Shown: positions 4,689 to 41,725 of the stretch, in pieces | How positions within the stretch are numbered: position 1 is the first letter of the stretch | Layout of the letters: every line of letters begins with the position of its first letter | Origin: Sphaerochaeta sp. | GTDB taxonomy: Bacteria > Spirochaetota > Spirochaetia > Sphaerochaetales > Sphaerochaetaceae | Direction: 5' to 3' | Assembly: GCA_016342655.1 (NCBI GenBank) | Contig: JAEINL010000020.1 | Span: 1 to 50,684, forward strand | DNA length: 50,684 nt | Notes under the pieces: generated by a model | Told to the model about the DNA's origin: nothing | Seen by the model: only the letters and a program-made list of their open reading frames with translations | Database searches by the model: none | Position numbers and translations under genes: made by a program

Positions 4689-6035
4689 TTAGTTTCGTAG
4701 TACCAGTGCTGAAGGGACAGGCCGTTCAGCTTCAAGATCAGAAGGGTCATACCTATCTGATATTTGCATATGCCGGACACCTTCTAAGAGGATCTGGGCT
4801 GACCCTCCCCCATCAAGATTGAGAATATCAGCATAGCCGTGCGAGGCACAGAACTTTGCAAGCTCCAAAAGAGAGCACCCGGTACTGTCGCTCTTGGGCT
4901 TGTAGCGTAGCTTCCCAGCACCCTCAGCCCAGATGAGGACAGCTTCCCCTTCGGCATTGCTTCCCACTGCAATGCGAGCGGCTCTCGCAGTCTCAAACGG
5001 CAAGGGGTAGACAGTAGAGGGAAAGGAAACCTTGTCCTTCTCCTTGTTGTAAAAAGGACAGGTCAGGGATTCGATCATCGTATGGTCTTCCATCATGGAA
5101 GGTCCTACCTGTATCCCAAAGACATACGCTTCCAGGCCATGGTAGATAACGTGTGTGTCCGTGACTTCGAGAAGGTTGTCTACGCTGAGGACAAACCCTG
5201 CCATAGGGATGGTGGTACCACCACCAGTCTTTATGGCTATGACCTGGTCTTCTGTAATGATGATATCAGTTCCTGTATGGATGGGCGTCCTTCGTTCTTC
5301 GGGCCTGAAATGAAATACAGCATTCTTGTTGTGGCTGTATGCTATCCCGTCAATCTCCACTGCAAGGCTGGTCAGTTCCTCTTGTTGTACAGTTGTCCTT
5401 CCTTGTTGGTCAACAAGGAGCACAGGGCGATGGTTGAGCGGAGGCATCATAAGTACTCCATCCTTCAAAGCCAGCCCATAGGGTGTGCCCAATTGGCAGT
5501 ATGGGGAGTCCAGATCAGTCGGGTCCATCAGGAAGAAGTGGGAATTGACTATGCAGGGCACTTTCTCCTGCTGGGAGAGGAATCCCATCTTTGCATTGAT
5601 AGGGACAAACAGTACGTCAGGGCGCTGCCCCTTTACTGTCTGTATCAGAGAATCTTTCTCTAATTGCGCAATGATCATAGAGGCTTTTTCATCGTCAACG
5701 ATGAAAGAACCTTCCCACCGTATCTTACCCTTCTTCACCTGGTCGTTGAGGTACACCGAAACGGCTACATTCTTGACGAAGATGCTTCCCTCCTCATGTT
5801 CCCCAGGACAATCGATGGCCATATCCTCGGGAACATGGAAAAAGGCGATCAGACCATGGAGGGCCGGGTTCTTAGGCAGTATGTTGGTAGTGTACAGCCT
5901 GGCTATCTCGCTGATAGCCTTTTTGCCAAAATCAGGAAACAGAAAGTCAACCTTGTTCCAGTCGAACCCCTCGACTACCTGATACCTCTGTATCTCACCA
6001 CTGTCACTCTGCATTGTCTCAATTCTACTTCGCAT
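4689..6035 (-). CDS. phosphodiester glycosidase (NAGPA/DUF2233 family)
   Basis: A 448-residue protein whose C-terminal half carries the NAGPA-family fold: a G-G-G-T-T segment, a central strand region and the signature L-N-L-D-G-G-G-S-A-Q-I-L near the end. Family members hydrolyse the bond between a sugar C1 and a phosphodiester; the human uncovering enzyme removes GlcNAc from GlcNAc-1-P-mannose. No signal peptide is visible, so it should act in the cytoplasm on an imported substrate. Its start is 1 nt after the permease stop codon, and its ribosome site AAGGGAT lies inside the last permease codons, which indicates strong coupling. The roughly 240-residue N-terminal part is not recognised. Confidence 0.75.
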   Translation of the reverse strand: MRSRIETMQSDSGEIQRYQVVEGFDWNKVDFLFPDFGKKAISEIARLYTTNILPKNPALHGLIAFFHVPEDMAIDCPGEHEEGSIFVKNVAVSVYLNDQVKKGKIRWEGSFIVDDEKASMIIAQLEKDSLIQTVKGQRPDVLFVPINAKMGFLSQQEKVPCIVNSHFFLMDPTDLDSPYCQLGTPYGLALKDGVLMMPPLNHRPVLLVDQQGRTTVQQEELTSLAVEIDGIAYSHNKNAVFHFRPEERRTPIHTGTDIIITEDQVIAIKTGGGTTIPMAGFVLSVDNLLEVTDTHVIYHGLEAYVFGIQVGPSMMEDHTMIESLTCPFYNKEKDKVSFPSTVYPLPFETARAARIAVGSNAEGEAVLIWAEGAGKLRYKPKSDSTGCSLLELAKFCASHGYADILNLDGGGSAQILLEGVRHMQISDRYDPSDLEAERPVPSALVLRN

Positions 6036-11799: not shown

Positions 11800-13620
11800 T
11801 TATCTGTCCATCTCCTGGAGCGCCTTAACAAGCTTTCCATTGTCAGCTTCATCACGAACAGCCAGTCTTATGAACTGCTTGGGAGCTATGCCCTTCTTAG
11901 TTGACAAGTCCTTGATAAAAATATTGTGCTTATCAAAAAGCTCAACTGCCAAATCAAAGGATCTTTTACCTCCTAAAACTTCACACATAATGTAGTTCGC
12001 CTGTGAAGGAAGGGCTTTCAGATAGCTGATCGTTCCTAAATCCTGCATCAGGCTCTTTCTTGCCTGGATAATCGAAGTAAGGGAGGATGCATACTGGGCC
12101 TTGTACTTATTCCATATCTGCATGAAGAACTCCCCGTAGGAGTTGATGTTCCAGATGGAGACTTGCTTTGCAATCTTAGCCAATACCTCTTTATCGGTTG
12201 TAGCGAGAATCCCAAGCCGTACTCCAGGAACCCCGTAAGACTTGGAAATACTTTTTATCACGACCAAGTTGGAATATTGCTCAAGTACGCTTTGATCCAA
12301 GAGAGAGACCTCATCTTTCGAATCAACAAAATCGCTGAATGACTCGTCGACAATGAGGGTTATGGTTCTCTCTTGAGCCCAGGATACGAGTCTGAGGACT
12401 TCTGCATAGGGAATGTAGTTTCCTGAGGGATTATCAGGATTGATCAGAAGCAGGGTCGAAAGATCCTTGTCAGAAAAATAGGTAATTAAATCATCGACAG
12501 TGTAGGAGAAATCTTTGTCTTCTACTGTATAGACACAAAGCTGTTCAGCTTTACACCGGTTACGGTACTCGTCAAACGAGGGAGATACCATACCAATGCG
12601 ACCTTCTGTCATCTCTATGAGACCCTTGATGAGTTCAGCAGCCCCATTCCCTACGATGACATTGCTAGCATGCAATCCATAGTAGTTGGCAGCAAGAAGG
12701 TTGTTCACCTTCTGCCCTGATGGATATGCACGCAGAAGGACATCAAAGCTCGCCTGCATCTCCTCTACCAGCTTGGTGGGAGGGTAATAGGGATTGACCA
12801 GATAACAATAGTCCAAGAGATTAGGATATCTCCAATACCCCCCATACCTGCTACAAAGCTTGTTGTATCGATCTGAGGGGTCCTTTGCAAACATGCTTTC
12901 TGCAATATCAAGGTCTTGCACGTCATCTATCTCATACCATTTCTTACCTTCAAGGACCAAGGCTTTAATCTCAGGCTTGTCCAAGAGAGCAATGACTTTC
13001 AGTACCTGCTCATAATACTCGTTGTCACCCAAGGCCTTGCTATAGGCTTCAAGGAAGGGTACATAATGGCTATTGGAAAACTCCTTGCTGAACTTATAGA
13101 TATTGACCGTCTTATAATAGTGGTGAACATTGCTGAAGCAAAAATGGTTCTTGTCCAAAAAGCTGATGATATTTTGTTCCTCATCCAAGGTTATGACAGT
13201 GCCATCCATCCAGCTCTCATATTTTGCTACCAAGGCAAGGCTTGGATAAGGATTCTCTATTAGGCTTTCAAGCACCCCGTCTTCAATGATGAGGTCAGAC
13301 TCGAGAAGAAGAGTATCCTGTTCAAGAAGATATTCCTTGGCAAGGAAAAGAGAGTAGATGTTGTTAGTCTTGTCATAGATCGGGTTATCAACAAAGACAA
13401 TGGGGGTTGTAATGTTCAAGGTACTGATATACCTGATCAGCTTCTGTCCCATATACCCCACTACAATGACAATCCTATCCAAGCCCTGGCTATCGAGTTG
13501 TCGCAACCCTCGCTCTATGAGCGTCTCACCATTAACCTTCACCATGCATTTGGTATTATCTGCAGTAAGGTCCTTCAATCTTTTTCCCATACCTGCGGCC
13601 AAAATTATTGCTTGCATCAT
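11800..13620 (-). CDS. bifunctional cytidylyltransferase / class I aminotransferase (PntC-AEPT-like)
   Basis: A 606-residue fusion. Residues 3-240 are a LicC/PntC-type nucleotidyltransferase (I-I-L-A-A-G-M-G-K-R-L at 5-15, K-C-M-V-K-V near 24-29, and W-Y-E-I-D-D at 228-233). Residues 250-606 are a fold-type-I PLP aminotransferase with N-P-D-N-P-S-G at 394-400, Asp425 and the Schiff-base Lys460 in S-I-S-K-S-Y. Treponema denticola has a comparable cytidylyltransferase fused to 2-aminoethylphosphonate transaminase, used to make CMP-activated phosphonoalkylamines. The next gene upstream is licD, whose products transfer such CDP/CMP-activated headgroups to glycans. A choline-phosphate or amino-alcohol role is the alternative. 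No PEP mutase is in the window. ATG 13617 fits the GGGAG site better than 13620. Confidence 0.72.
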   Translation of the reverse strand: MMQAIILAAGMGKRLKDLTADNTKCMVKVNGETLIERGLRQLDSQGLDRIVIVVGYMGQKLIRYISTLNITTPIVFVDNPIYDKTNNIYSLFLAKEYLLEQDTLLLESDLIIEDGVLESLIENPYPSLALVAKYESWMDGTVITLDEEQNIISFLDKNHFCFSNVHHYYKTVNIYKFSKEFSNSHYVPFLEAYSKALGDNEYYEQVLKVIALLDKPEIKALVLEGKKWYEIDDVQDLDIAESMFAKDPSDRYNKLCSRYGGYWRYPNLLDYCYLVNPYYPPTKLVEEMQASFDVLLRAYPSGQKVNNLLAANYYGLHASNVIVGNGAAELIKGLIEMTEGRIGMVSPSFDEYRNRCKAEQLCVYTVEDKDFSYTVDDLITYFSDKDLSTLLLINPDNPSGNYIPYAEVLRLVSWAQERTITLIVDESFSDFVDSKDEVSLLDQSVLEQYSNLVVIKSISKSYGVPGVRLGILATTDKEVLAKIAKQVSIWNINSYGEFFMQIWNKYKAQYASSLTSIIQARKSLMQDLGTISYLKALPSQANYIMCEVLGGKRSFDLAVELFDKHNIFIKDLSTKKGIAPKQFIRLAVRDEADNGKLVKALQEMDR

Positions 13621-13736: not shown

Positions 13737-14534
13737 CTATTTCTCTTGTTTCCATCCAACCTTATAGCGATGCTCCGAAGCTTGTTGTTCAATCGGGGGC
13801 AGTTTCAAGTAATCACCATACAATCCTGTCAGATTTGACTCGTAATCTGAAATAGCATAAAACGAAGCGTCCTCAAATTCGAGCAAGACTGGATGTTCAA
13901 AAGAAGATCGGGCGATTGTAACCAACTTCGCTTCACCAACCATAACAGCAACGTCTTTGCTAGTTTCATACGGGTAGAGGAGACAGTTCCGTTCCAAGGC
14001 TTTGATCACTTTCCTCACAGGGAAGAAGAGAGCTACCCCACGGGCTACCAATAATAGCAAGTCTTTAGGTATGCTCCATTCCCTGGAAAGATAATACTTC
14101 ATGCTCATATGAAGCTTATACAGAAATTTCTGCCTCTTATACAAGAGAACCTGCTCTCTCTTATCTGGAGGGAGGCCATCGACTGGGAAGATGTCTATAA
14201 AGACACCCATGTCTGGATAGGTATTACGAAGAGTCTCTTGAAGATATGTACGCGTATCATACACCTTTGCATACGGGTAACAGTACGCAGGGTCCAAGGA
14301 GGATGAGACAACCTTATAGTGCTCACTCTGGAAGGATTGGATAAAAATATCATAATCAGGTCGAGGCATGATGAGGTCGATGTCATCATCCCAAGGGATG
14401 AAGCCCTTATGGCGCACTGCACCAAGAAGGGTCCCATACCCCAAAGAATAGGTAATATCGTGAGCAAGACAAAAAGCATGGATCTCTTTCATCATATCCA
14501 GCTCAAGGTGTTTCATTTCATCCAAGTTAATCAT
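13737..14534 (-). CDS. licD: LicD family phosphotransferase
   Basis: About 265 residues with the LicD core: Y-G-T-L-L-G-A-V-R-H-K-G-F-I-P-W-D-D-D-I-D followed by M-P-R-P-D-Y. The clustered Asp residues are the metal and nucleotide-binding site of this nucleotidyltransferase-like fold. LicD enzymes move phosphocholine (or related phospho/phosphono groups) from a CDP/CMP carrier to a surface sugar. I chose ATG 14534, preceded by GAGGAA. An upstream in-frame ATG at 14558 would add 8 residues, and the small TACACCT/AGGTGTA palindrome at 14554-14570 overlaps that upstream start. It follows the CDP-glycerol-type transferase gene and precedes the cytidylyltransferase fusion, which probably supplies its donor. 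Confidence 0.85.
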   Translation of the reverse strand: MINLDEMKHLELDMMKEIHAFCLAHDITYSLGYGTLLGAVRHKGFIPWDDDIDLIMPRPDYDIFIQSFQSEHYKVVSSSLDPAYCYPYAKVYDTRTYLQETLRNTYPDMGVFIDIFPVDGLPPDKREQVLLYKRQKFLYKLHMSMKYYLSREWSIPKDLLLLVARGVALFFPVRKVIKALERNCLLYPYETSKDVAVMVGEAKLVTIARSSFEHPVLLEFEDASFYAISDYESNLTGLYGDYLKLPPIEQQASEHRYKVGWKQEK

Positions 14535-14663
14535 AAAAAATGCTACTTCCTCATACACCTAAAAGGTGTATTAAGATAGTAGCATAGAACAAAGATCTTA
14601 GTCTAAAATTGGTATGGATTCTTTGCCAAATTCCAAAAAGGAAATGATGATGGCAACAAATTC

Positions 14664-15884
14664 TTATGATAGCCCCTTCTGCTTCTCCAGCAGAAAATCT
14701 ACAACCCGCTCCCCACTCTTTCCCCGATACTGCCACGCTGTGTCCTTGGCTTTTCTTCGATTCTCAGTCAGCACCTTGCTCTGACATGCATCAAGCAAGA
14801 CTTGCCTGATGACAGGAAAACTCTCCGGCTTGAGTTCAAGGCCTATCTCATCCAGTACCCTGAACTTCCAGGGCTCCTCTTCAATGTCATAGGAGTCATA
14901 AGGCATTGCATCGAAGTCTGACTTCACATACATACAAGGCCGGTCAAAAAGAAACGTGTAGTCAAAGATTACCCCAGAGAAGTCTGAGAGCATGATGTCT
15001 GAGCGTGATAGGGATCCAAGATTCTCCCGGTTGAAGTCCCACTCTAGATTTGACTTCTGCTCATACCGTTTCTTCAGATGCTCAAGCATGTCCTTCTCTG
15101 ACTGTGCAGACTGGGGATGGGGACGGACTATGATGGTGAAGCCAGTCTCTACCAAGGGATCGAGAAGCTCCTGCCCATACCGAGAAAGGATGCCACTCTT
15201 CCCCCAGGATGGGGCTACAAGGACCGTGAAGGGATGCTCTTCCTCAATCTTGAGTGACGACACCTTCTCTGCAAGGACATCCAGATAGGGGCATCCTACA
15301 ACTTCAAGCTCTTTCACCTGTATCCCCCGTTGGCCTTCCAGCAATCTGATATGGGCTTTCTGGTATTCACCGGAAAGTAGCACCGAATCAAAATAATCCA
15401 GACCAAAGAGACGGTAGCTGGTAGCATCGTCAACAGCGTGCATGAGGTGGGAGTAATGCTTCACGCCCCTGGAACGTTTGAGTTGGTATACATCAAGACC
15501 GGGGGTGGTCATGAGGCATACATCCGCCTCAAGGAAGTTGAGGCGGGTGAATGCCTTGTTTCCCTCCCCTATGAACTCTGGCCTAACATAGGTGTACTGT
15601 TCTGAAAAGACAGGATCCTTCTCTGAGGAAGTATAGAACACTACAGGCACCTGTCTCTTCTCAAACTCCTCTACAATCGGCTTGAAGACATTCCAGTACC
15701 GGTCTCCTTCAGAGTAGATGACGAAGGGATAGCGGTCCCCATTGGCTACTGCCTTTCCTCCTGAAAGTACAAACTTCAACTTTAGGAAGGCCGCTTTACC
15801 GACAAAGTAGAGCATTGTCACCAAGCCTATGACAATGGAGAAAAGCATGCTTCCCGTACCGGGGTCTATATAGAATACCATCAT
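14664..15884 (-). CDS. CDP-glycerol glycerophosphotransferase-like protein (TagB/TagF family)
   Basis: A 406-residue protein with an N-terminal membrane anchor (about residues 10-35) and a GT-B-type Glyphos_transf domain. Recognisable parts are H-A-V-D-D-A, a V-A-P-S-W-G-K-S-G strand-loop, R-P-H-P-Q and the S-D-I-M-L-S-D-F-S-G-V-I-F-D-Y motif that holds the donor-site residues. Family members transfer glycerol phosphate (or ribitol or hexose phosphate) from a CDP donor to teichoic-acid-like or capsular chains. AAGGAAG lies about 9 nt upstream of the start. It lies 25 nt after the YidC-sulfatase gene. No CDP-glycerol synthase (tagD) is in the window, so the donor is unproven. Confidence 0.8.
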   Translation of the reverse strand: MMVFYIDPGTGSMLFSIVIGLVTMLYFVGKAAFLKLKFVLSGGKAVANGDRYPFVIYSEGDRYWNVFKPIVEEFEKRQVPVVFYTSSEKDPVFSEQYTYVRPEFIGEGNKAFTRLNFLEADVCLMTTPGLDVYQLKRSRGVKHYSHLMHAVDDATSYRLFGLDYFDSVLLSGEYQKAHIRLLEGQRGIQVKELEVVGCPYLDVLAEKVSSLKIEEEHPFTVLVAPSWGKSGILSRYGQELLDPLVETGFTIIVRPHPQSAQSEKDMLEHLKKRYEQKSNLEWDFNRENLGSLSRSDIMLSDFSGVIFDYTFLFDRPCMYVKSDFDAMPYDSYDIEEEPWKFRVLDEIGLELKPESFPVIRQVLLDACQSKVLTENRRKAKDTAWQYRGKSGERVVDFLLEKQKGLS

Positions 15885-15909: not shown

Positions 15910-18618
15910 TTAGCGTTCTATTGGAGCCCAGTTCGATTCTTCAAAGATATTGTCATGAACTGTAAAACTCATTGTATAATTTTTATCAAATTTAGTATTT
16001 TTTGGGTTAGGCATCCAATCGGCTTTATAGGCATGCACCAAACTCTTGTCAACCTCTTGAATCAGGTCTTTCTTAGTAAATGGATTGAGAGTAGAGACAC
16101 CAAGACCTTCAATTGCAAGAATCGGTGCATCAGCATTTGTCATAAAAGTTGGATCTGTGACATAGTCGCCGACCGCTCTAAAATCTTTCACAAGGAGCAA
16201 AGGATTAAATTGAGAGTACAAAGAATTGTTCTGGCTGAAGTCATCAAATACAGGGGTTTCCAACTCATACCCATGATCAGCAACTAGTATTATCCGTGTA
16301 TTGTCATACACTCCCATTCTCTTTAATTCCTCAAGCCATAATCCTATTCGCTTTATTGAGGCAGCATTTACGTGATAAGACCCAGTTTGTTTCTCTGTTA
16401 AGCCAGAAAAGGGGGTTTTTGAATTGGTCACAACACTTACATGCTCATATTCTGGGGCTTGCAACAGCCTTGGAGAATGTGGGGTCTCATTTGTAATAAT
16501 TGAAAAAGTATTCCCTTTTGCCTTTGTTTCAGTCAGTTTGCTTAGATAGTATAATTCAGTATACGAGTCTAAAAATCCTTCATCATCATTATATGAATGT
16601 TTCATTGAAAAATATTTACCTTCGTCATATATGATTACACGCATACTAGGTGGTGCCAGCTTAAAAATACTAAAAATAGGGAGATATTTTTTTGTGATGA
16701 CACTAGAATCAGAAAAATCATCATCCCCAGAAGAATGCTCGGTCCTAAAGGGCAGAGTATAGTTTCCAAGCACATTCATTGCGCGTATCTCAGGATACGG
16801 TCTAAAAGGACTTAGATCTCCGGACCAAACATAATTTGAAAACGGGGGATCTGTTACAGTAACAGAGTAACCCGCATCAAGAAAGATCTTTGGAAGGACA
16901 AGCAATGATTCATTATGCACATCTATAAGCTTGGTGCCTCTTGCTTCCATATTGTCAGGAGTATATTCATACCCTCCCAACATTGCAGGTGCGCCCGTTG
17001 TAGTATGGGCGCCGAATGAAACAGTATTGGGATAATATACAAAACCTTGATACTGGTCCATTAATTTAGGTGACTGATTCATGATATAGGGGAAATATGC
17101 ACTCAAAGCCCGGTCGAGGAATATGAATACAACATTATTCCCTTCTTTGGATAGGTCCACAATCGGTCTCATATCATCTGCATGAATAGTGTTTTTTTGG
17201 TTCTCAACAAGATTTCCCTGATGTTTTTTAAAGCTACTGTGAGTAATCCCCATGTTGTACACACCAGAAGCCAGCGATGCTAAAACCAAAACAGTCAATG
17301 CACCTGAGACAATCTTGGTCCTATCATTCTTGAATAACAAAAGGATGATGCCAAAACTACCAATTCCAGCAGCCAATGATCCATATGACAGTGCAGCAGA
17401 AGGAATTAAAAAGCCTGTATTATCAAATTGTATAAATGAGTTTACAACACTGTAATTCCCACTAAAGACAAATACATTAAGCAAGGAGGAAACGGAAAAC
17501 CCTACCAAGAGAATCGTAAACAGAGTTTTTACTTTATCGCTAAATAACCCATAGATAACAACAGGCCAAGCACAAAAGATACCAAAGAAAACCACAAGAG
17601 AATAAAAAATCAAATCCAAGGGATTATCAACTGAGCCTAAAAATGAAAACTCAATTGGAGATGAAGCTATCAGATTTGAAGGAATAACCAGTCCGCATAG
17701 AAGCCAGAGGAATGTACAGGAAAGAAAAAAAATCGTCTTTCTTCGTTTCTTATTTTCTGCCCAAGAGGCCAAATATTGCACATGGATATAATCTATCAGC
17801 CTTAGCACTTGTAAAGAAAAAATGAGCACAAGACAACCCAATACAATAATGAGTCTCTTAGTATTGGTCATGCCAGGATTCAGGTACATAAACATACTAC
17901 CGGCAAGAACCCCAAAAGAGGCAAATCCAATGCTCACCACTTGCTTTACATGCTTTAGTTTTTGCAGGCTATTCTTCACTAATGAGAAAATATTATTCAG
18001 AGTCCAATACAAAACTAACCCTGCTGGAGAAGTGTACAAGAGAGCCAGAAACAACAATGCCATCGCATACAGCTGAACCTTCTCTCGCAAAGGAAAGCCT
18101 TTTGTATAGATTGCACCTGCAACCACATTGATGAATGTCATTACTATAGGAAGCAGATTTATTCCAATACCATTAACCACTAAAAGGTTATCAGGTTTTC
18201 CCAAATCCTTGATGAATAGAAACCCAACACCTTGTAAGAGTTCAAAATTTGAAAGGAAATGAAATGCAGCAATAAAAAAGGGAATCTGAATCAAAAGACT
18301 TACTGAGCTTCTGAGTACATACATAGGATGGTAATGATTTTGTCTATAATATGTTGAAAGCAACATGAATTGCTCATCACCCTTGAAGGTTGATTTTATG
18401 CGAGTAATCCCTGGTTGTAACTTCATCCTTTTGTCACGTTCGGTCTTTTGAAGTTTATCGGCAATTAGATATAACGGTAGGGCTAAAACATTAATAGCTA
18501 TACTGACACCGACAATCGCAAGACCAAAGCTAGAAAACCCTTTATAGAAAAAAGTAAAAATGAATTCTACCAACAATTCCAAAGGATAGATGATTGTATT
18601 ATAAAGAAGAGCACCCAT
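15910..18618 (-). CDS. YidC/Oxa1-domain protein fused to a periplasmic sulfatase-like (LTA-synthase-type) domain
   Basis: A 902-residue protein. Residues 25-220 match the YidC/Oxa1 insertase core: membrane segment I at 30-52, a charged cytoplasmic hairpin with F-K-G-D-E-Q, then L-I-Q-I-P-F-F-I at 109-116, F-I-K-D-L-G-K-P-D at 135-143, and the S-P-A-G-L-V-L-Y-W-T-N-N-type segment near 197-210. The groove Arg expected in membrane segment I is replaced by Asn43. Residues 225-455 add about six further membrane segments. Residues 490-850 form an alkaline-phosphatase/sulfatase-fold domain with Asp502, a Thr nucleophile candidate in A-H-T-T-T-G (537-542), E-T-P-H (711-714) and D-H-G (781-783). Such domains transfer phosphoglycerol or phosphoethanolamine, or hydrolyse sulfates. 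Neighbours (CDP-glycerol-type transferase, LicD) favour a glycan-decorating transferase. Confidence 0.75.
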   Translation of the reverse strand: MGALLYNTIIYPLELLVEFIFTFFYKGFSSFGLAIVGVSIAINVLALPLYLIADKLQKTERDKRMKLQPGITRIKSTFKGDEQFMLLSTYYRQNHYHPMYVLRSSVSLLIQIPFFIAAFHFLSNFELLQGVGFLFIKDLGKPDNLLVVNGIGINLLPIVMTFINVVAGAIYTKGFPLREKVQLYAMALLFLALLYTSPAGLVLYWTLNNIFSLVKNSLQKLKHVKQVVSIGFASFGVLAGSMFMYLNPGMTNTKRLIIVLGCLVLIFSLQVLRLIDYIHVQYLASWAENKKRRKTIFFLSCTFLWLLCGLVIPSNLIASSPIEFSFLGSVDNPLDLIFYSLVVFFGIFCAWPVVIYGLFSDKVKTLFTILLVGFSVSSLLNVFVFSGNYSVVNSFIQFDNTGFLIPSAALSYGSLAAGIGSFGIILLLFKNDRTKIVSGALTVLVLASLASGVYNMGITHSSFKKHQGNLVENQKNTIHADDMRPIVDLSKEGNNVVFIFLDRALSAYFPYIMNQSPKLMDQYQGFVYYPNTVSFGAHTTTGAPAMLGGYEYTPDNMEARGTKLIDVHNESLLVLPKIFLDAGYSVTVTDPPFSNYVWSGDLSPFRPYPEIRAMNVLGNYTLPFRTEHSSGDDDFSDSSVITKKYLPIFSIFKLAPPSMRVIIYDEGKYFSMKHSYNDDEGFLDSYTELYYLSKLTETKAKGNTFSIITNETPHSPRLLQAPEYEHVSVVTNSKTPFSGLTEKQTGSYHVNAASIKRIGLWLEELKRMGVYDNTRIILVADHGYELETPVFDDFSQNNSLYSQFNPLLLVKDFRAVGDYVTDPTFMTNADAPILAIEGLGVSTLNPFTKKDLIQEVDKSLVHAYKADWMPNPKNTKFDKNYTMSFTVHDNIFEESNWAPIER

Positions 18619-30629: not shown

Positions 30630-32720
30630 TTAAAAACCAGACAATCTTTTTTTATCCTGTTTCTGTATCCTGTACTTCTCCCACATAAAAGGCCTACCAA
30701 ACATGGTATTAAACACTATTCCAAGGATTGGCACCTTAGTAACAGAAACAGTTGCAAGCAATTGTTTCATTGCTTTCTTTGATGCTATGCCTTGACGTAT
30801 ATTCAGTACAAGACCTGTTGAATTCTTTGCAACTGCCAATAGGTTTGAAGGTGATCTGAATGTAGGTCCATCTATGAGAATGATATCATATGCTTCAGCG
30901 GCTGTTTGGACAGTGCTTGAAAAGGCTTCAGAATTCAGAATTATTGACAATTCATGAGGTTCGCCATCGATAGATGCCAGGTGAAGCAATGGCAGTTTGG
31001 TATCTGTCTTCTTTACTGCACCCAAATCCATGTCCTCTAAAGATACTTTTTTAACAGAGGTGTCTGAAGCTACGATAGAATCGTAGATATTAGGATACAT
31101 TGTCTCTTCACTGTTAGTTCCAATCATCAACACTTTTTTACCATTTTTCATTATGGAAAGAGCAAGATTCAAGACTATTGATACACCAGACTCTCTATAT
31201 CCCAAACTTGAAAAGCAATAGACATTACCACCATTCGAAGTGCCACCATGCTGCACGATGCCAGCTAATTGACTAAAAGCTTCAGAGGTTCGACCTGCAA
31301 GACTAATAAATATACCTAATTCAATACTTGAATGATTATTGTTTCTCTGATTTTTGGGAATAGTAGTCCAAATTGGAATTTGTTCTCCAACAAATTTTTT
31401 TATTCCAAATTCATCAATAAGCGAATCTGAAAAAGTATCATACAGGAGAATACATAAAAACCCTAGAGCTAAACCCAAAAACAAACCCAATGCTAGAATA
31501 AGAAGAGTAGGGGTATTTCCATCCAAATCTTTAATTTGCACAGGTTCAACAACAGAAGTTGGATTTAAAGCAATAGATCTATTTTCTTCAAATGATTTGA
31601 GCTGGTTGGTATATTGAAGTACTTTGCCTTTATATTGATTTAGATCATAATTTATCTTTTCTTCAATCAAGGCAATAGATCTGAACTCTTTTAAAGAGTC
31701 AAAATAATATTGTTTTTCATCAGCAAGGAAAGAAACTTTTACACTACTAGTAATTTGAGGAAGAAAAACTTCAGCCTCAGCTTGTCCTTGTATCAAGGAG
31801 AGATGATCTAGCAAAGCAAGCTTGCTTTTTTCAAGGTTTTCCCAATAAAACCCACCAGGGGAATCTTCACTCACCACTTCATTGGCCTTAGTCTGTTTAA
31901 TTAGTTGGGCAATCTGAAAATAAACAAGATTACTGTACTCCTGTGTATAATTCTCAACAAGACTAACACTTGTTGGGTCTACAATCCTCAGAACTCCTAA
32001 AGTTTTTAAACCATCTTCAGCAATTATATTAGGGTCAACCTCCCGTAATAGTATTTCTAAAAAGTTAAGTATTCTGTGGTAGGAACTATTATTAGCATTA
32101 TATTCTACATATATCGGTCTAGATTGTAACTCATCCCTAGCTAGTTCTGCTTCTACGAGACTGCTCTCTGCTTGTCTTAGCATTGTTTTAAGCAAGCCAT
32201 GTTCTTTATCCAGCTGTTCATCTGATATCTCTGATAGCTTCGCATCAAAGGCAGTGTGCAAGGCAGCAATAAAAGCATTGGCAAAATCTTGATTGACATG
32301 CTCAAAGGAAACTGTAACTTGGTTGGTATTTTCGATTTCAGATAGTTCAATCTTTAAAAGCAGGTTTTTAAATTTTTTCTCTTCAAGCAACAAATCACTG
32401 TAATCAGTGCCATCTTTGCGTGTATATGCACCAAGTTCCATAGAACCCAAAGCTTTGGCCACAACACCAGTACTAGTAAAATATTGTATTTCATTCACAA
32501 TACCTGTAGAGGCTGACTTGTTTCCAGTATTTTGCACCAAACTCGCTATAGGCTCTACCGTTATCGTAGTGGTCGCCGTATATGAAGGTGTACTAATCAA
32601 CGCATATCCTAAACTTAAGGCTACTACGCCTACAACCACAACCAACAATAATACAATATGATTTTTTACAATACACAGTAATTCGGCAATACCGTTACCT
32701 TCAGAATATGACTTATCCAT
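30630..32720 (-). CDS. Wzc-like chain-length regulator with degenerate BY-kinase domain
   Basis: A 696-residue protein. Membrane segment 1 is at about 21-43, a long periplasmic Wzz-type region with coiled-coil stretches extends to about 405, membrane segment 2 is near 410-432, and a cytoplasmic ParA/BY-kinase-like domain fills the last 200 residues. Wzc-type proteins set chain length and help assemble export machinery. In the kinase domain the Walker A expected at S-S-x-x-x-G-E-G-K-S/T reads S-S-L-G-Y-R-E-S-G-V-S with no Lys, Walker A' is M-I-G-T-N-S-E, and only the Walker B-like I-I-L-I-D-G-P remains. The C-terminus has no Tyr cluster. ATP hydrolysis and autophosphorylation are therefore unlikely (inference). 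Confidence 0.8.
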   Translation of the reverse strand: MDKSYSEGNGIAELLCIVKNHIVLLLVVVVGVVALSLGYALISTPSYTATTTITVEPIASLVQNTGNKSASTGIVNEIQYFTSTGVVAKALGSMELGAYTRKDGTDYSDLLLEEKKFKNLLLKIELSEIENTNQVTVSFEHVNQDFANAFIAALHTAFDAKLSEISDEQLDKEHGLLKTMLRQAESSLVEAELARDELQSRPIYVEYNANNSSYHRILNFLEILLREVDPNIIAEDGLKTLGVLRIVDPTSVSLVENYTQEYSNLVYFQIAQLIKQTKANEVVSEDSPGGFYWENLEKSKLALLDHLSLIQGQAEAEVFLPQITSSVKVSFLADEKQYYFDSLKEFRSIALIEEKINYDLNQYKGKVLQYTNQLKSFEENRSIALNPTSVVEPVQIKDLDGNTPTLLILALGLFLGLALGFLCILLYDTFSDSLIDEFGIKKFVGEQIPIWTTIPKNQRNNNHSSIELGIFISLAGRTSEAFSQLAGIVQHGGTSNGGNVYCFSSLGYRESGVSIVLNLALSIMKNGKKVLMIGTNSEETMYPNIYDSIVASDTSVKKVSLEDMDLGAVKKTDTKLPLLHLASIDGEPHELSIILNSEAFSSTVQTAAEAYDIILIDGPTFRSPSNLLAVAKNSTGLVLNIRQGIASKKAMKQLLATVSVTKVPILGIVFNTMFGRPFMWEKYRIQKQDKKRLSGF

Positions 32721-32781
32721 TCATGAACCCTCTTTTCCATTAATTACATAATATTCGTTATATACATGAATTTCCAGCAAA

Positions 32782-32898
32782 CGAGTAAACCACTCGAAAA
32801 TATTAGGGATTTTTCATGGATACCGACCACTATTTGCTGAAATCAACACCAGTCACTCAGCTATTGAAACCCTTCAATATGGGGCCACAGGGGTGTGG
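32782..32898 (-). promoter_or_regulatory. structured leader upstream of the wzc-like gene
   Basis: The 241-nt gap between legF and the wzc-like gene contains three perfect small stems: CGAGT/ACTCG at 32782-32796, ATTGAA/TTCAAT at 32863-32878 and CCACA/TGTGG at 32885-32898. No consensus promoter pair and no JUMPstart/ops sequence was found. A TATAAT hexamer occurs near 32930 on the - strand without a good -35. Hairpin-rich leaders of long polysaccharide operons often serve antitermination. Confidence 0.35.
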
Positions 32899-32972
32899 TA
32901 AGAATTTTTATCGGGAATTATAGCTCAGCTTACAATACCACCCACTCAAAACAGAAGAAAGGCCCAGAAAAA

Positions 32973-33731
32973 TCAAAAATATTCTTTTACTCTTGAGAAT
33001 ACTACGCTGAATTCTGACTTCGTATGAAAAAGATGTTTTGCAATAGCCTGCATCATCTCAAAATCATTTTCATGATCCAAATCCAATACAGCTGTATCAA
33101 ACATTTTAATAATATCACAGTTACCTTCAAAAATATTTTTCCCACTTTTCAGAAACGCTGGAGAATAGGCATACAATGAAGCATTCATGTCGAATATCTC
33201 TGGAGCTTCTTGTCTCGTGTTAAAATCTGAGGAAAGCACCCGTTCATATCCAGTTCTTGTTTTTTTCACCATGTTGAAATAAGGATTTCTCCTAGCATCA
33301 GTTACAGAAAAAACCACATCGGCTGTTGATTGATTTTTCTTCTTGATGATAGCCCCAATATCATCAACGGTTCTCAAAGGGGCAGTAATATCTAAATCCA
33401 GTATTATATCGTATTCTTTACCAGTTTTCTTTTTCATTTCATGCAGACAATTCTGAATAACCATCACTTTGGGAGTATTGTCCAAGCCCAATGCATCTTC
33501 TCTTTGAATTATTGAAACAGAGGGGATTTTTTCTTTCGAAAATAAGCCTATCAGTTCAGCGCTGTCTGTATTTACTACGATATCACAATTGATGCCTGGA
33601 TTCTTTTCCATGAACAGGTCCAAAGCTGCTAGGGTATAATATGGCAATGGATACCCAAGAAAATCTCTGATGTTCTTATTCTTAATACCCTTTGATCCAG
33701 CCCTTCCACAAATCGTACATAAAATATTCAT
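32973..33731 (-). CDS. legF: CMP-nonulosonate (probably CMP-legionaminate) cytidylyltransferase
   Basis: About 252 residues, NeuA/PtmB type. C-G-R-A-G-S-K-G-I-K-N-K-N at the N-terminus is the CTP-binding loop, and R-T-V-D-D-I, F-S-V-T-D-A-R-R-N-P-Y and L-D-L-D-H-E-N-D-F-E follow as in acylneuraminate cytidylyltransferases. It activates the nonulosonic acid with CTP. ATG 33731, with AAGGAG 7 nt upstream and a 4-base overlap with the preceding oxidoreductase stop, is preferred over a longer reading that starts at 33758. Context (LegB, LegC, PtmE) points to legionaminic acid and not Neu5Ac. Confidence 0.83.
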   Translation of the reverse strand: MNILCTICGRAGSKGIKNKNIRDFLGYPLPYYTLAALDLFMEKNPGINCDIVVNTDSAELIGLFSKEKIPSVSIIQREDALGLDNTPKVMVIQNCLHEMKKKTGKEYDIILDLDITAPLRTVDDIGAIIKKKNQSTADVVFSVTDARRNPYFNMVKKTRTGYERVLSSDFNTRQEAPEIFDMNASLYAYSPAFLKSGKNIFEGNCDIIKMFDTAVLDLDHENDFEMMQAIAKHLFHTKSEFSVVFSRVKEYF

Positions 33732-34681
33732 TCCATTACTCCTTTGGTAGCAATGCACAAGGTCTTCAAAGCTGCAGCTATTGTATTGGTATTTTCAGAG
33801 GTACCCTCGAGCACAGAAAAAAATTGCTCAATCTCTTTTCGCTGATAGTCATTCCTTGATTCCTCGAAGTGAATAGTCTTGCCAGTCTTCAAATACCGAA
33901 TCTCATTCTTTAAAAGATCACCTACAATCGTATCATCAGAGGAAAAGAGCTGAATCTCCCGAATGGGTATACGGCCAAAATAATCCAAGTGGATCTCTAC
34001 AGTAAGATTAGGATATTTGGCGATATAAATTGAAAGATCATCACTGTTGATCTCAAGATTTGAAAATGTACCCCTAATATTCGTTACCTGTTCAGGAAAT
34101 CCCAAAAGATAGATGAGATAATCCCATTCATGTATCAAATCGATAGAAACACCACCCCCAAATTCCTTATGGGCACTATATGATTTTCTATAGTCTTGAG
34201 GAGGTCTCCATTCCGGAAGATAGCTTGAACATATTGCTCGTACTGAATATACGTTAGTGAGGTCATATTGTGTCTTCATATACTGGACCACTTGGCTATA
34301 TCGCAAAGGGCAAGCGACATAATAAGTCATGTTTGGATCCAGATTCAGCTCTTGTAGAGAAAGGCTTGAAGAATCAAAAACCGGCTTTTCAATGAACATA
34401 TGCTTTGTTTTGGATACATACTGTTTTATTGTAGCATAATGAAAGGAAGTTGGATTTGTTATGAATAATATATCATAATCATCTGGGACTTGTTCATATG
34501 CATAATATATATTAGCGATATTGGGCAGAATCTCGTTGCCGATAGCACCTCCCCTACCGCTTCGAATAACATCAATGCTGTAGGTACAACCCTTTTTCCC
34601 CAAAACTTCAACAATGTTATGCAGGTGTCTTGTTGCTATGGAACCTAATCCTATTATTCCAATTTTATAATCAACACTCAT
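33728..34681 (-). CDS. Gfo/Idh/MocA family oxidoreductase (with EKP motif)
   Basis: About 317 residues. The N-terminal NAD(P) Rossmann motif is I-G-I-I-G-L-G-S-I-A-T-R-H, and the family's catalytic E-K-P is present as F-I-E-K-P-V. The C-terminal alpha/beta domain includes G-G-G-V-S-I-D-L-I-H-E-W-D, with the conserved Asp/His region. Family members oxidise or reduce sugar or inositol hydroxyls. ATG 34681 (GAGGGA upstream, 11-base overlap with the preceding gene) is preferred to 34693. It lies between legF and a second oxidoreductase, so a redox change on the nonulosonate or a partner sugar is likely. Confidence 0.8.
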   Translation of the reverse strand: MSVDYKIGIIGLGSIATRHLHNIVEVLGKKGCTYSIDVIRSGRGGAIGNEILPNIANIYYAYEQVPDDYDILFITNPTSFHYATIKQYVSKTKHMFIEKPVFDSSSLSLQELNLDPNMTYYVACPLRYSQVVQYMKTQYDLTNVYSVRAICSSYLPEWRPPQDYRKSYSAHKEFGGGVSIDLIHEWDYLIYLLGFPEQVTNIRGTFSNLEINSDDLSIYIAKYPNLTVEIHLDYFGRIPIREIQLFSSDDTIVGDLLKNEIRYLKTGKTIHFEESRNDYQRKEIEQFFSVLEGTSENTNTIAAALKTLCIATKGVME

Positions 34682-35660
34682 CAGATCCCTCAATCAAGTC
34701 AATCAAGCTTAGGGTTTTCTTATCTTTTTCAAAACTATACATTGGTTGTTCTTTTTCTTGCACCACTGCAAAAAAGGATTCGATTTCTCGATAATATGCA
34801 TTCTCTATCACAAAGCTAGAATAACCTTCCAAACTATCAACCTTATCATATAGCTGAATATTGACATCCAGTTTTTGCTTGAAATCATATTCAAAGAGAC
34901 CAGTGGGAGAACCGTTCCAGGTTAAATATACTTGCTCATTAAAAACCTCAAGGTTTCTCACAGCTTTTCTTGAGATGACGTCAACAGCCAACAAGCCCTT
35001 GCTTCCAGAAGAATGCTCTATCATCAAGATATAATTATCATCATACCCAATATCCAAACCACTGAGCCTATTTTTTTTGACTTGAACGTCAACGACATCA
35101 CCAAACACCTCAAGCAACCAGGGAAGCTCAATGGCTAAAAGCTCTCTGCATCCGTTGGTTCTCTTTTCACCAACAAAGAAATTTGTATAATGCTCCCACG
35201 GATGCCAATCGGGAAGATACTGACCGACATGGTAGGTATAATTAAAGGGAGTGGCAGAAGTGGTCACAGCAGATCTGATATGCTTTATCTCTTCCCTATA
35301 TAGAAAAGTTGATGAAAGGAACAAGACCAGATTTTTCTTTCTAGCTAATTCACAATTTGCTTCATATCCATCATCCACCAAATTCAATTCTGTGAAGACA
35401 TGTAACCCATATTCCAAACAACTCGAAATTATTTCATTGTGTGATAAAGGGGATGTGCAAACAAAAACACATAGCAATTCTGTTAAGATGGGGATATCAC
35501 AAAGGTTTTTATATGTAATGATTGAGTATTCTTCTTCACATTTCGTTCTCCGTTCCATGTTCAAATCAATCCCAATCACCTGAAAAGAGGAATCATATTT
35601 CTGAATCAACCGAATCCTTCGCCTACCCATGGAACCTAAACCGATCACTGCTATGTTCAT
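34671..35660 (-). CDS. Gfo/Idh/MocA-like protein lacking the EKP lysine
   Basis: A 329-residue protein with the Rossmann start I-A-V-I-G-L-G-S-M-G-R-R-R and a Gfo/Idh/MocA-like C-terminal domain. At the place of the catalytic E-K-P it reads F-T-E-L-N-L-V, so the Lys that binds the nicotinamide and substrate is missing. It overlaps the NeuC-type gene by 4 bases and the EKP-containing paralogue by 11 bases. It may be an inactive or altered partner in a hetero-oligomer with that paralogue (inference), or catalyse a different step. Confidence 0.72.
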   Translation of the reverse strand: MNIAVIGLGSMGRRRIRLIQKYDSSFQVIGIDLNMERRTKCEEEYSIITYKNLCDIPILTELLCVFVCTSPLSHNEIISSCLEYGLHVFTELNLVDDGYEANCELARKKNLVLFLSSTFLYREEIKHIRSAVTTSATPFNYTYHVGQYLPDWHPWEHYTNFFVGEKRTNGCRELLAIELPWLLEVFGDVVDVQVKKNRLSGLDIGYDDNYILMIEHSSGSKGLLAVDVISRKAVRNLEVFNEQVYLTWNGSPTGLFEYDFKQKLDVNIQLYDKVDSLEGYSSFVIENAYYREIESFFAVVQEKEQPMYSFEKDKKTLSLIDLIEGSDEC

Positions 35661-36832
35661 GCTTCCATTACCTTAAGATCAAAAAACTGTTTCTTCAAAT
35701 CAATAGTATCTTCTAACAAAACCTGCTTTATACAAGTTGCTATTAACTCTGAACTATTCCCATTCCCATAGGGATTGTCTGCCATTTTTACTTTTTCTTT
35801 GAACTCTTTGCTTAAGGCATATTTAATAGCCCTTTCTATATCATCAGAAACCGGTTTGCAGTTGATTATGCTAGCTGCCTGGAGCCTCCCCTTCTGGCGA
35901 TCTCCAATATTAATTGTGGGGACATGTAAGCTGGGCACCTCAATTATACCACTTGAGGAATTTCCAATGACAAAAGCACTGTGTTTTACTGTTGAGAGAT
36001 ACCGCTTTGTACCTAAAGAGGCAAAGACTACTGCGTTCTTATGGGTAGCTACAAACTCATCAATCATTTCATTGATAACCCGACCATCAGCATCAGCGTT
36101 TGCCTTGGAAAAAACAAATTCCAAATCAGGATGTGCATGGAAAACATCAAGGATGGTCTTAAGCTGGATTGCAGAACTGTCCTTTTCCAAAGTCACCGGA
36201 TGAAAAGTGACCATGACTAAAGGGTGGTCAAGCGAAAAACCCAAGAATTTTCCAAGACTAGCCCTATCAAGCAACTTCTCGTTCATAATATTTTCAATTC
36301 CAAGTGCACCCACATTATATACCCTTGAAGGATCCTCCCCAAGTTGGATAACTCGCTTTCTATACTCTTCAGTGCTGGTAAAATGGAGATAGCTCAGCTT
36401 GGTGATAGCATGTCGATAAGCCTCATCCACAGCTCCTTCAGTTGCTTCTCCACCATAGAGATGAGCTATGGGTATTCTTTGGTTCATTGCAACACAGCAG
36501 ACAGCCAGAGTTTCATACCTATCGCCAAGGACAATCAACAAATCAGGCTTTAGATCAGCAAAATACTCAGAGAACCCTATCATGGCCAATCCCATAGACT
36601 TGGAAATGGATGATGGGGTGTCAGAGCTGAGCAAGATCTCTATCTTCTTGTCAATTTCTATATTGTCTTCCTCAATTTCCTTATATGTCAGCCCGAACTC
36701 TGGAGAGAGGTGGGCCCCAGTCACCACAACTCGGATATCAAACTCTCCAAGTTGCTGTAACTTCAGAATAAGGGGACGCAATAATCCATACTCAGCTCTT
36801 GTAGCAGTAAGAATGCTTATGATTTTTTTCAT
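35657..36832 (-). CDS. legG: hydrolysing nucleotide-GlcNAc-type 2-epimerase (NeuC/LegG)
   Basis: A 391-residue GT-B-fold epimerase: T-A-T-R-A-E-Y-G-L-L-R-P at 9-20, V-V-T-G-A-H-L-S-P-E-F-G near 37-48, L-G-D-R-Y-E-T near 101-107, H-L-Y-G-G-E near 123-128 and G-N-S-S-S-G-I-I-E-V-P near 294-304. It releases the nucleotide and inverts C2 to give the six-carbon precursor of the nonulosonic acid. The 4-base overlaps with both neighbours show tight coupling. The GDP-linked substrate is inferred from the accompanying PtmE and LegB. Confidence 0.87.
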   Translation of the reverse strand: MKKIISILTATRAEYGLLRPLILKLQQLGEFDIRVVVTGAHLSPEFGLTYKEIEEDNIEIDKKIEILLSSDTPSSISKSMGLAMIGFSEYFADLKPDLLIVLGDRYETLAVCCVAMNQRIPIAHLYGGEATEGAVDEAYRHAITKLSYLHFTSTEEYRKRVIQLGEDPSRVYNVGALGIENIMNEKLLDRASLGKFLGFSLDHPLVMVTFHPVTLEKDSSAIQLKTILDVFHAHPDLEFVFSKANADADGRVINEMIDEFVATHKNAVVFASLGTKRYLSTVKHSAFVIGNSSSGIIEVPSLHVPTINIGDRQKGRLQAASIINCKPVSDDIERAIKYALSKEFKEKVKMADNPYGNGNSSELIATCIKQVLLEDTIDLKKQFFDLKVMEA

Positions 36833-37824
36833 ATTTCTATCAATTCATCCTCTTGAAAGCTTCTCTTGGAAACCTTGCCCAACACCTCAAACCATCGCAT
36901 AGGACTAATTCCATTTCCAGGACGTTTTGTTGTTATGTTATCCTCAGAAAAGTTTTCCCCTTCCACAATGTGCCTACTTGCAATGATGCTTTTCCTAACA
37001 ATGGGGATATTCTTGATCTCAGAAAGACTTGGCTTCTTCTCACCTGAACCCAAAGCAACCTCAATATTTCGTATGGCATTAACCATAGCCTTGAGCTCAT
37101 CAGGTTCCAGGCTCGCCTTATGGTCAGGACCTTCCATCTGTCGATCAAGAGTGAAATGCTTTTCTATCACTGTAGCACCCAAAGCCACAGCTGCAATAGG
37201 TACCTCGATACCTTTTGTATGGTCAGAATATCCTACGCTTACATGAAATTCTTTTCTCAGCGTCTCCATTGCACGCAGGTTTACTTCTGCATAGGGCGCA
37301 GGATACTCGGTAGTGCAATGGAGAAGTGTGACCTCACCACAGCCATACTCTCTCAAGACCTTCAAGGCATCACTAATTTCTTCAATGGTGCTCATACCTG
37401 TAGACAATATGATGGGCATATGTGTTTGTGCGATTTTGATAAGATAGGGAAGATTGGTGATCTCTCCAGAAGGTATCTTCCAATACTTCATGTTCAGCGT
37501 TTGTAAGAACTCGATGCTATGAAAGTCAAACGGGGTAGATAAGAAGGAAATATCCCTTTCCTCACAGTATTGGGCAAGTAGAGCAAATTCGTCATATGAA
37601 AGTTCCAGCTTCTGAAGCATATGTAATTGGCTTTCATCATTCTTGGTTTGCTTTTGCTGATATTCCGCCTTAGTGGCCTTTCCAGAAACCAAGGCCTCTG
37701 CCTTGAAGGTCTGAAACTTGATGCAGTCAACACCTGCTTCCTTGGCAGCATCAATCATTTTTCGTGCTAGGTCCAAGTTCCCATTATGATTGACCCCTGC
37801 CTCTGCAATTATGAACGTTTTCAT
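36829..37824 (-). CDS. legI: nonulosonate synthase (NeuB/LegI)
   Basis: About 331 residues. The N-terminal TIM barrel starts F-I-I-A-E-A-G-V-N-H-N-G and contains K-F-Q-T-F-K, S-T-P-F-D, P-S-G-E-I-T-N and S-T-G-M-S. E-K-H-F-T-L-D and G-P-D-H-K-A-S-L follow, and a C-terminal antifreeze-like SAF domain covers about 275-331. It condenses PEP with the 2,4-diacetamido hexose to the nine-carbon acid. ATG 37824 overlaps the acetyltransferase stop by 4 bases; a TTG at 37845 would add 7 residues and is less likely. Confidence 0.9.
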   Translation of the reverse strand: MKTFIIAEAGVNHNGNLDLARKMIDAAKEAGVDCIKFQTFKAEALVSGKATKAEYQQKQTKNDESQLHMLQKLELSYDEFALLAQYCEERDISFLSTPFDFHSIEFLQTLNMKYWKIPSGEITNLPYLIKIAQTHMPIILSTGMSTIEEISDALKVLREYGCGEVTLLHCTTEYPAPYAEVNLRAMETLRKEFHVSVGYSDHTKGIEVPIAAVALGATVIEKHFTLDRQMEGPDHKASLEPDELKAMVNAIRNIEVALGSGEKKPSLSEIKNIPIVRKSIIASRHIVEGENFSEDNITTKRPGNGISPMRWFEVLGKVSKRSFQEDELIEI

Positions 37825-38465
37825 CTTGGCGAAACAACCTTGCAAGGGTTGCCATAAGCTGTTGATTGGTCAGGAATATTCTGAAGAGAGACACTTCCGA
37901 TTCCAATCATAACATTAGATCCAATTTCCAGTTGTTGCCGAATAACACTGTTGGCCCCTATATGGGAGTCATTTCCAATCGTAACGGATCCACAAAGGAC
38001 AGTTCCTGTTGAGATATGAACAAATTGCCCTATTTTACAATCATGTTCAATAGTTGCAGAGGTATTGATAATGGAATAATCACCAATAGTCACCCCTGCA
38101 TTAACAACAACATTTTTCCCTATGAAGATACCTTTCCCCAACTCGCAGTCTGCACTTACATGTGCACTCTTATCAATAATATTTGGGACTGAATACCCGA
38201 TGCTAGAGAGTAATGAAGACAACCGCCTTCGGGCACCTGTATCCCCAATGCTACCTAATGAGACAAAAGCATGAGTAAAACCTCTCCCATAGAGCTCTTG
38301 GAGGTCATCATCGAAACCAATCACAGGAATACCTAATACAGTTTGTGTAGAAGTTCCTTCCTTTTCTATAATACCAATTTCTGAGTACTCATTCGATGAA
38401 CTAAGCGTATCAATGATGGACTTGCAATGTCCTCCAGCTCCAAGTAGCAACAACTTCTTACTCAT
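37821..38465 (-). CDS. neuD: NeuD/PglD-type acyltransferase (candidate LegH)
   Basis: A 214-residue protein with an N-terminal Rossmann-like domain (L-L-L-G-A-G-G-H-C-K-S) and a C-terminal left-handed beta-helix of hexapeptide repeats (for example I-G-K-N-V-V-V-N-A-G-V-T-I-G-D and I-G-N-D-S-H-I-G-A-N-S-V-I). H-D-C-K-I-G-Q supplies the catalytic His. These acetyl-CoA enzymes N-acetylate the 4-amino sugar (PglD/LegH) or O-acetylate sialic acid (NeuD). Since no other acetyltransferase is in the cluster, the LegH step is the likely job. It overlaps ptmE by 8 bases. Confidence 0.8.
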   Translation of the reverse strand: MSKKLLLLGAGGHCKSIIDTLSSSNEYSEIGIIEKEGTSTQTVLGIPVIGFDDDLQELYGRGFTHAFVSLGSIGDTGARRRLSSLLSSIGYSVPNIIDKSAHVSADCELGKGIFIGKNVVVNAGVTIGDYSIINTSATIEHDCKIGQFVHISTGTVLCGSVTIGNDSHIGANSVIRQQLEIGSNVMIGIGSVSLQNIPDQSTAYGNPCKVVSPR

Positions 38466-39507: not shown

Positions 39508-39509
39508 AT

Positions 39510-40679: not shown

Positions 40680-40690
40680 TTGAGTGACTC

Positions 40691-41668: not shown

Positions 41669-41697
41669 TATACCGCCTCTATATATCAACTTAAAAA

Positions 41698-41725
41698 ATT
41701 ATAATGTCAACAAGACCACTTGAAA
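41698..41725 (-). promoter_or_regulatory. promoter candidate of the nonulosonate operon
   Basis: On the - strand, TATAAT (41698-41703) lies 16 bp after TTTCAA (41720-41725), giving a leader of about 25 nt before legB. An overlapping alternative, TTGACA (41705-41710) with GATATA 17 bp later, would leave almost no leader. Confidence 0.4.

Follow-up and report, generated by a model that had tools for sequence, protein, structure and literature searches.

What would a membrane-protein insertase fold be doing in the same polypeptide as a domain of periplasmic phosphotransferase type? The question is raised by one gene in the window (by which we mean the whole stretch of 50,684 nucleotides analysed, from Sphaerochaeta sp.), where an earlier note, made from the DNA letters, had described a 902-residue frame at positions 15910..18618 that joined a YidC core to a sulfatase-like domain. 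This frame was confirmed exactly (902 codons with an ATG start) and lies on the minus strand, which the note had left unstated. By ORF call and structure model it encodes three consecutive parts, referred to here as Y-T-S: Y, a module of YidC/Oxa1 fold (residues 1-222, 17953..18618, minus strand); T, a hydrophobic part (residues 223-480, 17179..17952, minus); and S, a domain of alkaline-phosphatase fold and EptA/LtaS/PbgA type (residues 481-902, 15913..17178, minus).

Architecture and occurrence of the fusion gene

The claim of a YidC core was borne out by both profile and fold. Pfam 60KD_IMP covers residues 31-216 (E 1.7e-23; 83.8 bits against a cut-off of 35), and TIGR03592, the YidC C-terminal domain, scores 85.6 bits, barely above its cut-off of 84.3; phmmer aligned residues 12-218 with E. 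coli YidC and residues 9-216 with B. halodurans YidC2. The earlier note had staked its reading on residues 25-220 taking the YidC fold; when residues 1-225 were modelled alone (26-row alignment, mean pLDDT 89.8) they adopted that fold, and the best Foldseek matches were solved YidC structures, namely 3wo7 (B. halodurans YidC, TM-score 0.72), 6al2 and 3wvf.

Extra membrane segments had also been claimed, about six of them, and are present; by hydropathy their number is seven, at residues 226-455 of T, which is helical in the model. Together with the five helices of YidC, seven segments would place S outside the cell membrane. Pfam Sulfatase matches residues 495-788 (E 8e-7; 29.1 bits against a cut-off of 25). 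The whole of Y-T-S was predicted from a 42-row alignment with a mean pLDDT of 87.9, and its nearest Foldseek matches were PbgA/YejM, EptA, MCR-1, phosphonate monoester hydrolases and LtaP (6xlp, 5fgn, 9nww, 4uop), with TM-scores over the full length that are low (0.21-0.27 among the matches listed), as expected for a multi-domain query.

The catalytic-type residues read from the window copy proved to be a family trait: Asp502 (codon 17113..17115, minus strand), Thr539 (17002..17004, minus), His714 (16477..16479, minus) and Asp781 occur in all 75 distinct full-length copies, and His782 in 74 of them (Asp781-His782, 16273..16278, minus). The run Thr539-541 fared differently; Thr539 is its sole conserved position (42 of 42 alignment rows), and a three-Thr motif was dropped. 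We take Thr539 to be the nucleophile and Asp502, Asp781 and His782 to be metal ligands, as in the EptA/LtaS/PbgA-type family. True sulfatases, the formylglycine enzymes, have a Cys or Ser nucleophile; a true sulfatase was ruled out by the Thr at this place in all 75 copies. The fold, lying behind a membrane part, and the conserved residues suggest that S is probably a phosphotransferase of EptA/LtaS/PbgA type.

The fusion itself is real. Full-length fused copies are found in 65 of the 76 loci examined, and the 75 distinct sequences among them rule out a sequencing or assembly artefact. Separate genes, which the earlier note had named as evidence against the fusion, do exist in relatives (L061, L062, L063), yet fused loci far outnumber them, and the separate forms adjoin G, the partner gene described below. 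An ordinary YidC mis-joined to its neighbour was ruled out as well, since Y forms its own branch against 12 ordinary spirochaete YidCs (SH-aLRT 100) and since an ordinary YidC sits elsewhere in the organism's own genome. A role in defence was set aside, the one PADLOC match (E 0.025) being taken as chance.

A search for the architecture across genomes recovered the family in 72 of 895. In the phylum of the window, the fusion protein matched 69 of 296 genomes, or 68 once G099, whose Y-profile match of 133 bits lies in a 539-aa frame, had been removed; by the Y alignment, there were matches in 3 of 348 and 1 of 251 genomes of the phyla of two outlying matches. A scan of a genome collection gave 39 loci, 35 of them labelled Treponema or other spirochaetes, and hosts include Treponema berlinense and T. 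bryantii. The few copies labelled Bacillota or Chloroflexota come from metagenome bins and could reflect transfer or mis-binning. In the window's own family the fusion is present in 2 of the 13 genomes listed, so that gain by transfer is possible there.

On the Y profile, full-length Y scores at least 278 bits and ordinary YidC 80-133 bits; with G099 and the probable ordinary YidCs of G038, G092 and G183 (103-115 bits), this profile separates the two less widely than first judged. Some loci overlap or represent one genome found in two ways (the copies in L021 and L066 are identical, and those in L017 and L025 are 98.7% identical), and residues were therefore counted on sets thinned at 95% identity: Y from 100 to 89, ordinary YidCs (30 loci among the matches listed plus the own-genome copy) from 31 to 27, and full-length copies from 84 to 75.

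The groove and the conserved residues of Y

The earlier note had read Asn43 (codon 18490..18492, minus strand) in place of the groove arginine of YidC. Asn43 does stand opposite that arginine in the alignment with E. coli YidC, in the column that holds the groove Arg or Lys, and the replacement extends to the whole family: among 89 distinct Y sequences the position is Asn in 51, Thr in 24, Ser in 13 and Phe in 1, with Lys or Arg in none, whereas it is positive in 27 of 27 ordinary spirochaete YidCs (Lys in 26, Arg in 1). According to the available part of one study (PMC8920935), a positive residue here is strictly conserved in all YidC homologues.

Other positions set the two groups apart as well. 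Ser39, Tyr96, Thr161, Tyr171, Ser197 and Asn208 are invariant in Y (89/89), whereas ordinary YidC has other or varying residues there; position 103 is Arg in 84, Lys in 4 and Gln in 1 of the 89, and Gly or Ser in 26 of the 27 ordinary proteins. From the alignments, Y appears to have gained a positive charge close to the beginning of its second membrane helix and to have lost the central one of the groove. In a tree of 40 of the 100 Y rows and 12 of the 31 ordinary YidCs, the branch between the two (SH-aLRT 100) was drawn as 2.12 on either side of the root. Y is also the best-conserved part of the protein; the window copy has a median identity of 56% in Y, 25% in T and 38% in S to the 83 other full-length copies.

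These residues bear on whether Y might still be a working insertase, kept for one client, most likely G or T-S itself. The YidC fold is retained, and Trp205 is kept in 89 of 89 Y sequences at the place of E. coli YidC residue 517; in the portion of PMC8920935 available, E. coli YidC tolerates loss of its positive groove residue if position 517 is aromatic or hydrophilic. The same source reports, however, that S. mutans YidC2, which has Trp at that place, needs its positive residue, and with the two results opposed, the missing charge cannot by itself decide whether Y has lost insertase activity. Against a working insertase stand the ordinary YidC also present in the own genome and the difference between the invariant residues of Y and those of the 27 ordinary YidCs; it is also hard to explain why an insertase should be attached to every one of as many as four enzyme copies in a locus, as in L064. 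We consider this explanation improbable.

The partner gene, its neighbours and the separate forms

Downstream of Y-T-S on its strand lie three genes, the first of which, G (14664..15884, minus; 406 aa), encodes a CDP-glycerol-type phosphotransferase (Pfam Glyphos_transf, E 1.6e-9; 37.7 bits against a cut-off of 22.1). Among the 895 genomes, drawn from three phyla, G was found in 70 (66 of 296, 3 of 348 and 1 of 251), 69 of them with the fusion family; the family occurred alone in three genomes and G alone in one. With genomes treated as independent and kinship ignored, the Fisher p for this co-occurrence is 2e-98. Spirochaete genomes were searched with single proteins at E 1e-30, and those of the other two phyla with alignment A2 (for Y) and with the G protein of the window (for G); in the paired searches genome identity was judged by genome handles. 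The three genomes with the family alone (G159, G171, G175) are 85-91% complete, and G175 has a 35-residue piece of G at a contig end; the one with G alone (G222), in which no Y was found at E 1e-5, is 66% complete. In G038, S is present, and of Y there is just the first quarter, next to G where a contig ends. Of 76 loci, 44 have G adjoining a Y/S gene on its strand and 51 have it anywhere; the remaining 25 show no G in the available stretch, and many loci are short. These counts leave out L040, L041, L078 and L079-L108, which are the window copy, ordinary YidC loci and a duplicate. That G is a near-obligate partner of the fusion family is well supported.

Across 48 G sequences the N-terminal tail YIDPGTGSmL is near-invariant, as are His146, His149, RPHPQ and DFSG, and the only membrane segment, residues 9-36, follows directly on this short tail (residues 1-36 together, 15777..15884, minus strand). 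A six-frame scan of the loci for the tail motif gave 56 matches. In 50 of them the frame was 380-520 aa long; the frames of the other 6 were shorter or longer and also read like G N-termini. Within the loci scanned, no match fell outside G-like frames.

Proteins with short N-out tails belong to the typical substrates of YidC. The groove of Y might accordingly be a docking site that holds the tail and membrane helix of G, with G inside and S outside in one complex, and with lipids crossing by some other way. Such docking would fit the near-invariant tail in front of a single membrane segment, the confinement of the motif to G-like frames, the likeness of the tail to those of typical YidC substrates and the co-occurrence of G with the family. 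The topology of G on which it depends is itself predicted, and a mirror-tree comparison gave r(Y,G) of 0.787 and r(S,G) of 0.750, a difference that is not significant (bootstrap interval -0.024 to 0.122). On balance we find docking possible but rather doubtful as the whole explanation; it is nearly as good as the passage of lipid through Y proposed below, and both could hold together.

The next two genes are a LicD-family phosphotransferase (13737..14558, minus; 273 aa; Pfam LicD, E 2.7e-44) and N (11800..13620, minus; 606 aa), in which Pfam and PDB matches (6pd1, 1jyk, 3ftb, 1lc5) identify a PntC/LicC-like nucleotidyltransferase and a CobD-like PLP enzyme. If N works like the PntC-transaminase fusion, its PLP half should supply the amine for activation by its other half. 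Decarboxylation of CobD type, acting on phosphoserine or phosphothreonine, would yield ethanolamine phosphate or aminopropanol phosphate; the score of N against TIGR01140 (CobD), 178 bits, is below the cut-off of 290.6. N clusters with proteins of eight other loci, and the member in L066 scores best as HisC, not CobD, so that head groups may differ between loci. A LicD cluster member lies within five genes of the fusion in 6 of 76 loci and a member of the nucleotidyltransferase-PLP cluster in 9 of 76. Of the decoration machine that the earlier note had drawn from these neighbours, G holds as a near-constant part (69 of 72 family genomes), while LicD and N-type fusions recur and are not obligate.

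The surroundings (Wzz-type, EpsG-type, glycosyltransferase, nonulosonate-type and sugar-nucleotide genes) mark the window as a surface-polysaccharide locus. Such a locus, rich in cytoplasmic glycan enzymes, would also suit an S that draws on ordinary phosphatidylethanolamine or phosphatidylglycerol as EptA and LtaS do, with Y anchoring the enzyme or locally refreshing the lipid and G carrying out a separate glycan step. The fold likeness of Y-T-S to EptA, MCR-1 and LtaP points the same way, but the near-constant pairing of G with the fusion family in three phyla is left unexplained, and we give the use of ordinary lipid little credence.

The loci with separate genes show what keeps company with Y. 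In L061 the run of genes opens with PEP mutase and phosphonopyruvate decarboxylase and continues with a nucleotidyltransferase-aminoethylphosphonate transaminase; Y (238 aa) comes next, then G (439 aa) and lastly a membrane protein of phosphatase type (607 aa). The three phosphonate genes all score above their NCBIfam equivalog cut-offs. In L062, Y and G are followed by a 594-aa protein that had no Pfam match and is tied in through 55% identity to the 607-aa protein of L061. The phosphonate genes of L062 lie on the opposite strand and are less sure, the PEP mutase being recognised by Pfam, the decarboxylase by a match below the Pfam cut-off and the transaminase fusion by BLAST clustering only. 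The third gene of L061 and L062 matched neither the S profile nor, by hhalign, anything of S, and is not orthologous to S. This suggests that a partner enzyme of such a kind, not S exactly, is what Y and G require. L063 has two fused copies with, beside them, a 221-aa Y and then a 664-aa T-S, and in L065 three successive fused copies accompany phosphonate genes and G. Members of the phosphonate-type clusters occur in 8 of 76 loci (L017, L019, L028, L036, L061, L062, L065, L075), a count made by cluster membership and not by annotating every member singly; the PEP-mutase-cluster member of L075 is short (289 aa). No PEP mutase was matched in the own genome; the phosphonate link is thus not directly applicable to this organism, and phosphonate was rejected as its own head group.

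Arrays of two to four fused copies add a further pattern. Over 25 tandem pairs from 14 loci, identity is 50-94% in Y, 18-69% in T and 30-74% in S, and in every pair Y is more conserved than either T or S; with repeats counted once (n=12), a single G accompanies the array in 8 regions, two G in 3 and none in 1. A better-conserved Y, varied T and S and mostly a single G would follow if a shared donor or partner were served by Y and the copies of S differed in acceptor.

A proposed membrane machine and its known relatives

The reading we prefer, at a probability of about 0.45, is a membrane machine for surface decoration in which G loads a head group, Y passes it across the membrane or hands it over, and S transfers it to a glycan. 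Cytidylyl-activated groups are cytoplasmic and S is periplasmic in type, so that a lipid or lipid-linked form must cross. In vitro, phospholipid scrambling is reported in the available part of PMC10491306 for E. coli YidC and other proteins of the Oxa1 family; taken with the near-constant presence of G and with a Y that is either joined to S or adjoins G, this suggests the division of labour just given. N would make a cytidylyl-activated small phospho-amine, which here may be ethanolamine phosphate or aminopropanol phosphate in view of its CobD-like PLP half, an aminoethylphosphonate enzyme standing in place of that half in some other loci. G, held to the membrane by its one N-terminal helix, would move the head group from its CDP or CMP carrier to a lipid or lipid-linked acceptor at the inner face; Y, with no central positive charge in its groove, would let the polar lipid head cross and hand it to T-S; and S, an EptA/LtaS-type enzyme with a Thr nucleophile, would put the phospho-head group on a periplasmic surface glycan.

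The assembly, that is the fusion, the folds and the partnership with G, is well supported; the role of Y, which the earlier note had proposed as a scaffold or a lipid or substrate channel, together with the lipid donor, its passage through Y, the direction of transfer, the acceptor and the head group used here, is what we infer. Several observations weigh against passage of lipid. EptA and LtaS function without a YidC module, and the need for a lipid-moving part is not obvious from them. N, LicD and phosphonate genes are each near a minority of loci, the mirror-tree does not single out Y over S as the partner of G, and loss of the groove charge need not alter YidC function, judging by the E. 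coli result in the accessible part of PMC8920935. More tentatively than the machine as a whole, we suggest that in this family the YidC fold, through loss of its groove charge and acquisition of polar residues of its own, became a flippase specialised for phospho- or phosphono-head groups carried on lipid, which would make it a new class of membrane transporter, coupled within one chain to S and, through an inserted N-tail, to G.

No published description of the Y-T-S fusion was found in the literature searched, outside which most subscription papers lie, nor any work joining YidC with a sulfatase, nor anything usable on lipoteichoic-acid-like glycolipids of treponemes. Each part nevertheless has known relatives. 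T-S resembles EptA/MCR-1, LtaS/LtaP and PbgA/YejM in coupling a membrane part to an alkaline-phosphatase-fold domain with Thr and residues of metal-ligand type. Enzymes of the EptA/LtaS/PbgA type have five membrane segments, whereas T-S has seven and carries Y in front; identity to the EptA, MCR-1, PbgA/YejM, LtaP and LtaS entries among the matches listed is 10-15%. G shares the profile of TagB/TagF (PF04464) and its RPHPQ and DFSG motifs, and differs in the near-invariant YIDPGTGS tail, the single membrane segment and the link to Y.

The Pnt pathway (Rice et al. 2019, PMC6697681) shares its PEP mutase, decarboxylase and PntC-transaminase genes with some loci, where they lie beside Y and G, unlike the own genome with no PEP mutase. 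That study, in the part available, follows the pathway as far as CMP-AEP and calls the steps from phosphonate synthesis to decorated bacterial surfaces enigmatic; the words 'insertase' and 'sulfatase' occur nowhere in its main text. The module described here offers co-inherited candidate genes for the export-and-transfer step after phosphonate synthesis, and if the flippase proposal were true it would supply that missing step for CMP-activated head groups such as 2-aminoethylphosphonate.

With YidC/Oxa1 (PF02096, TIGR03592), Y shares its fold and profile scores above the cut-offs, but it has no positive groove residue (0 of 89), forms a separate branch, is fused to T-S and is carried in addition to an ordinary YidC. 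A large family of YidC fold thus does without the residue that PMC8920935, in its available part, calls strictly conserved in all homologues. It provides a natural test of whether biology makes use of the lipid scrambling that insertases show in vitro, and the fold of an insertion machine has here probably been given a new job.

A nucleotidyltransferase joined to a PLP enzyme

In protein N, encoded at window 11800-13620 (-), a nucleotidyltransferase and a CobD-like PLP enzyme form a single chain, an arrangement which could possibly allow one protein to convert phosphoserine or phosphothreonine into a CDP-activated amine. The cluster of N was present in 9 of the 76 loci examined, and the PLP halves were mixed among its members.

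Recurring neighbours and unusual members of the fusion family

A second cluster recurring near the YidC-phosphatase fusion, with an MBOAT O-acyltransferase as annotated member, was found in 9/76 loci (locus L010, 11364-12911, and eight more). Two loci carried fusion-family members split over two adjacent or overlapping frames (L072, 6187-7826; L076, 1-3902), which may represent either assembly errors or decayed copies. Among the 89 distinct sequences of the YidC-fold module, only that of L018 (6001-8691) has phenylalanine at the groove position.

Other genes of the window and the surface-polysaccharide region

A protein with a NAGPA phosphodiester-glycosidase domain is encoded at 4689-6035 (-), adjoined by a ROK-family gene. 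IS66-type and DDE_Tnp_1 transposases (45150-46877 (+) and 49426-50502 (-)) lie at the edge of the polysaccharide region. The surface-polysaccharide genes, at 30630-43753, include a Wzz-type gene, a gene for a Polysacc_synt flippase-type protein, and NeuB, UDP-GlcNAc 2-epimerase, DegT aminotransferase, PglD-like and cytidylyltransferase genes, a set as in nonulosonate synthesis.
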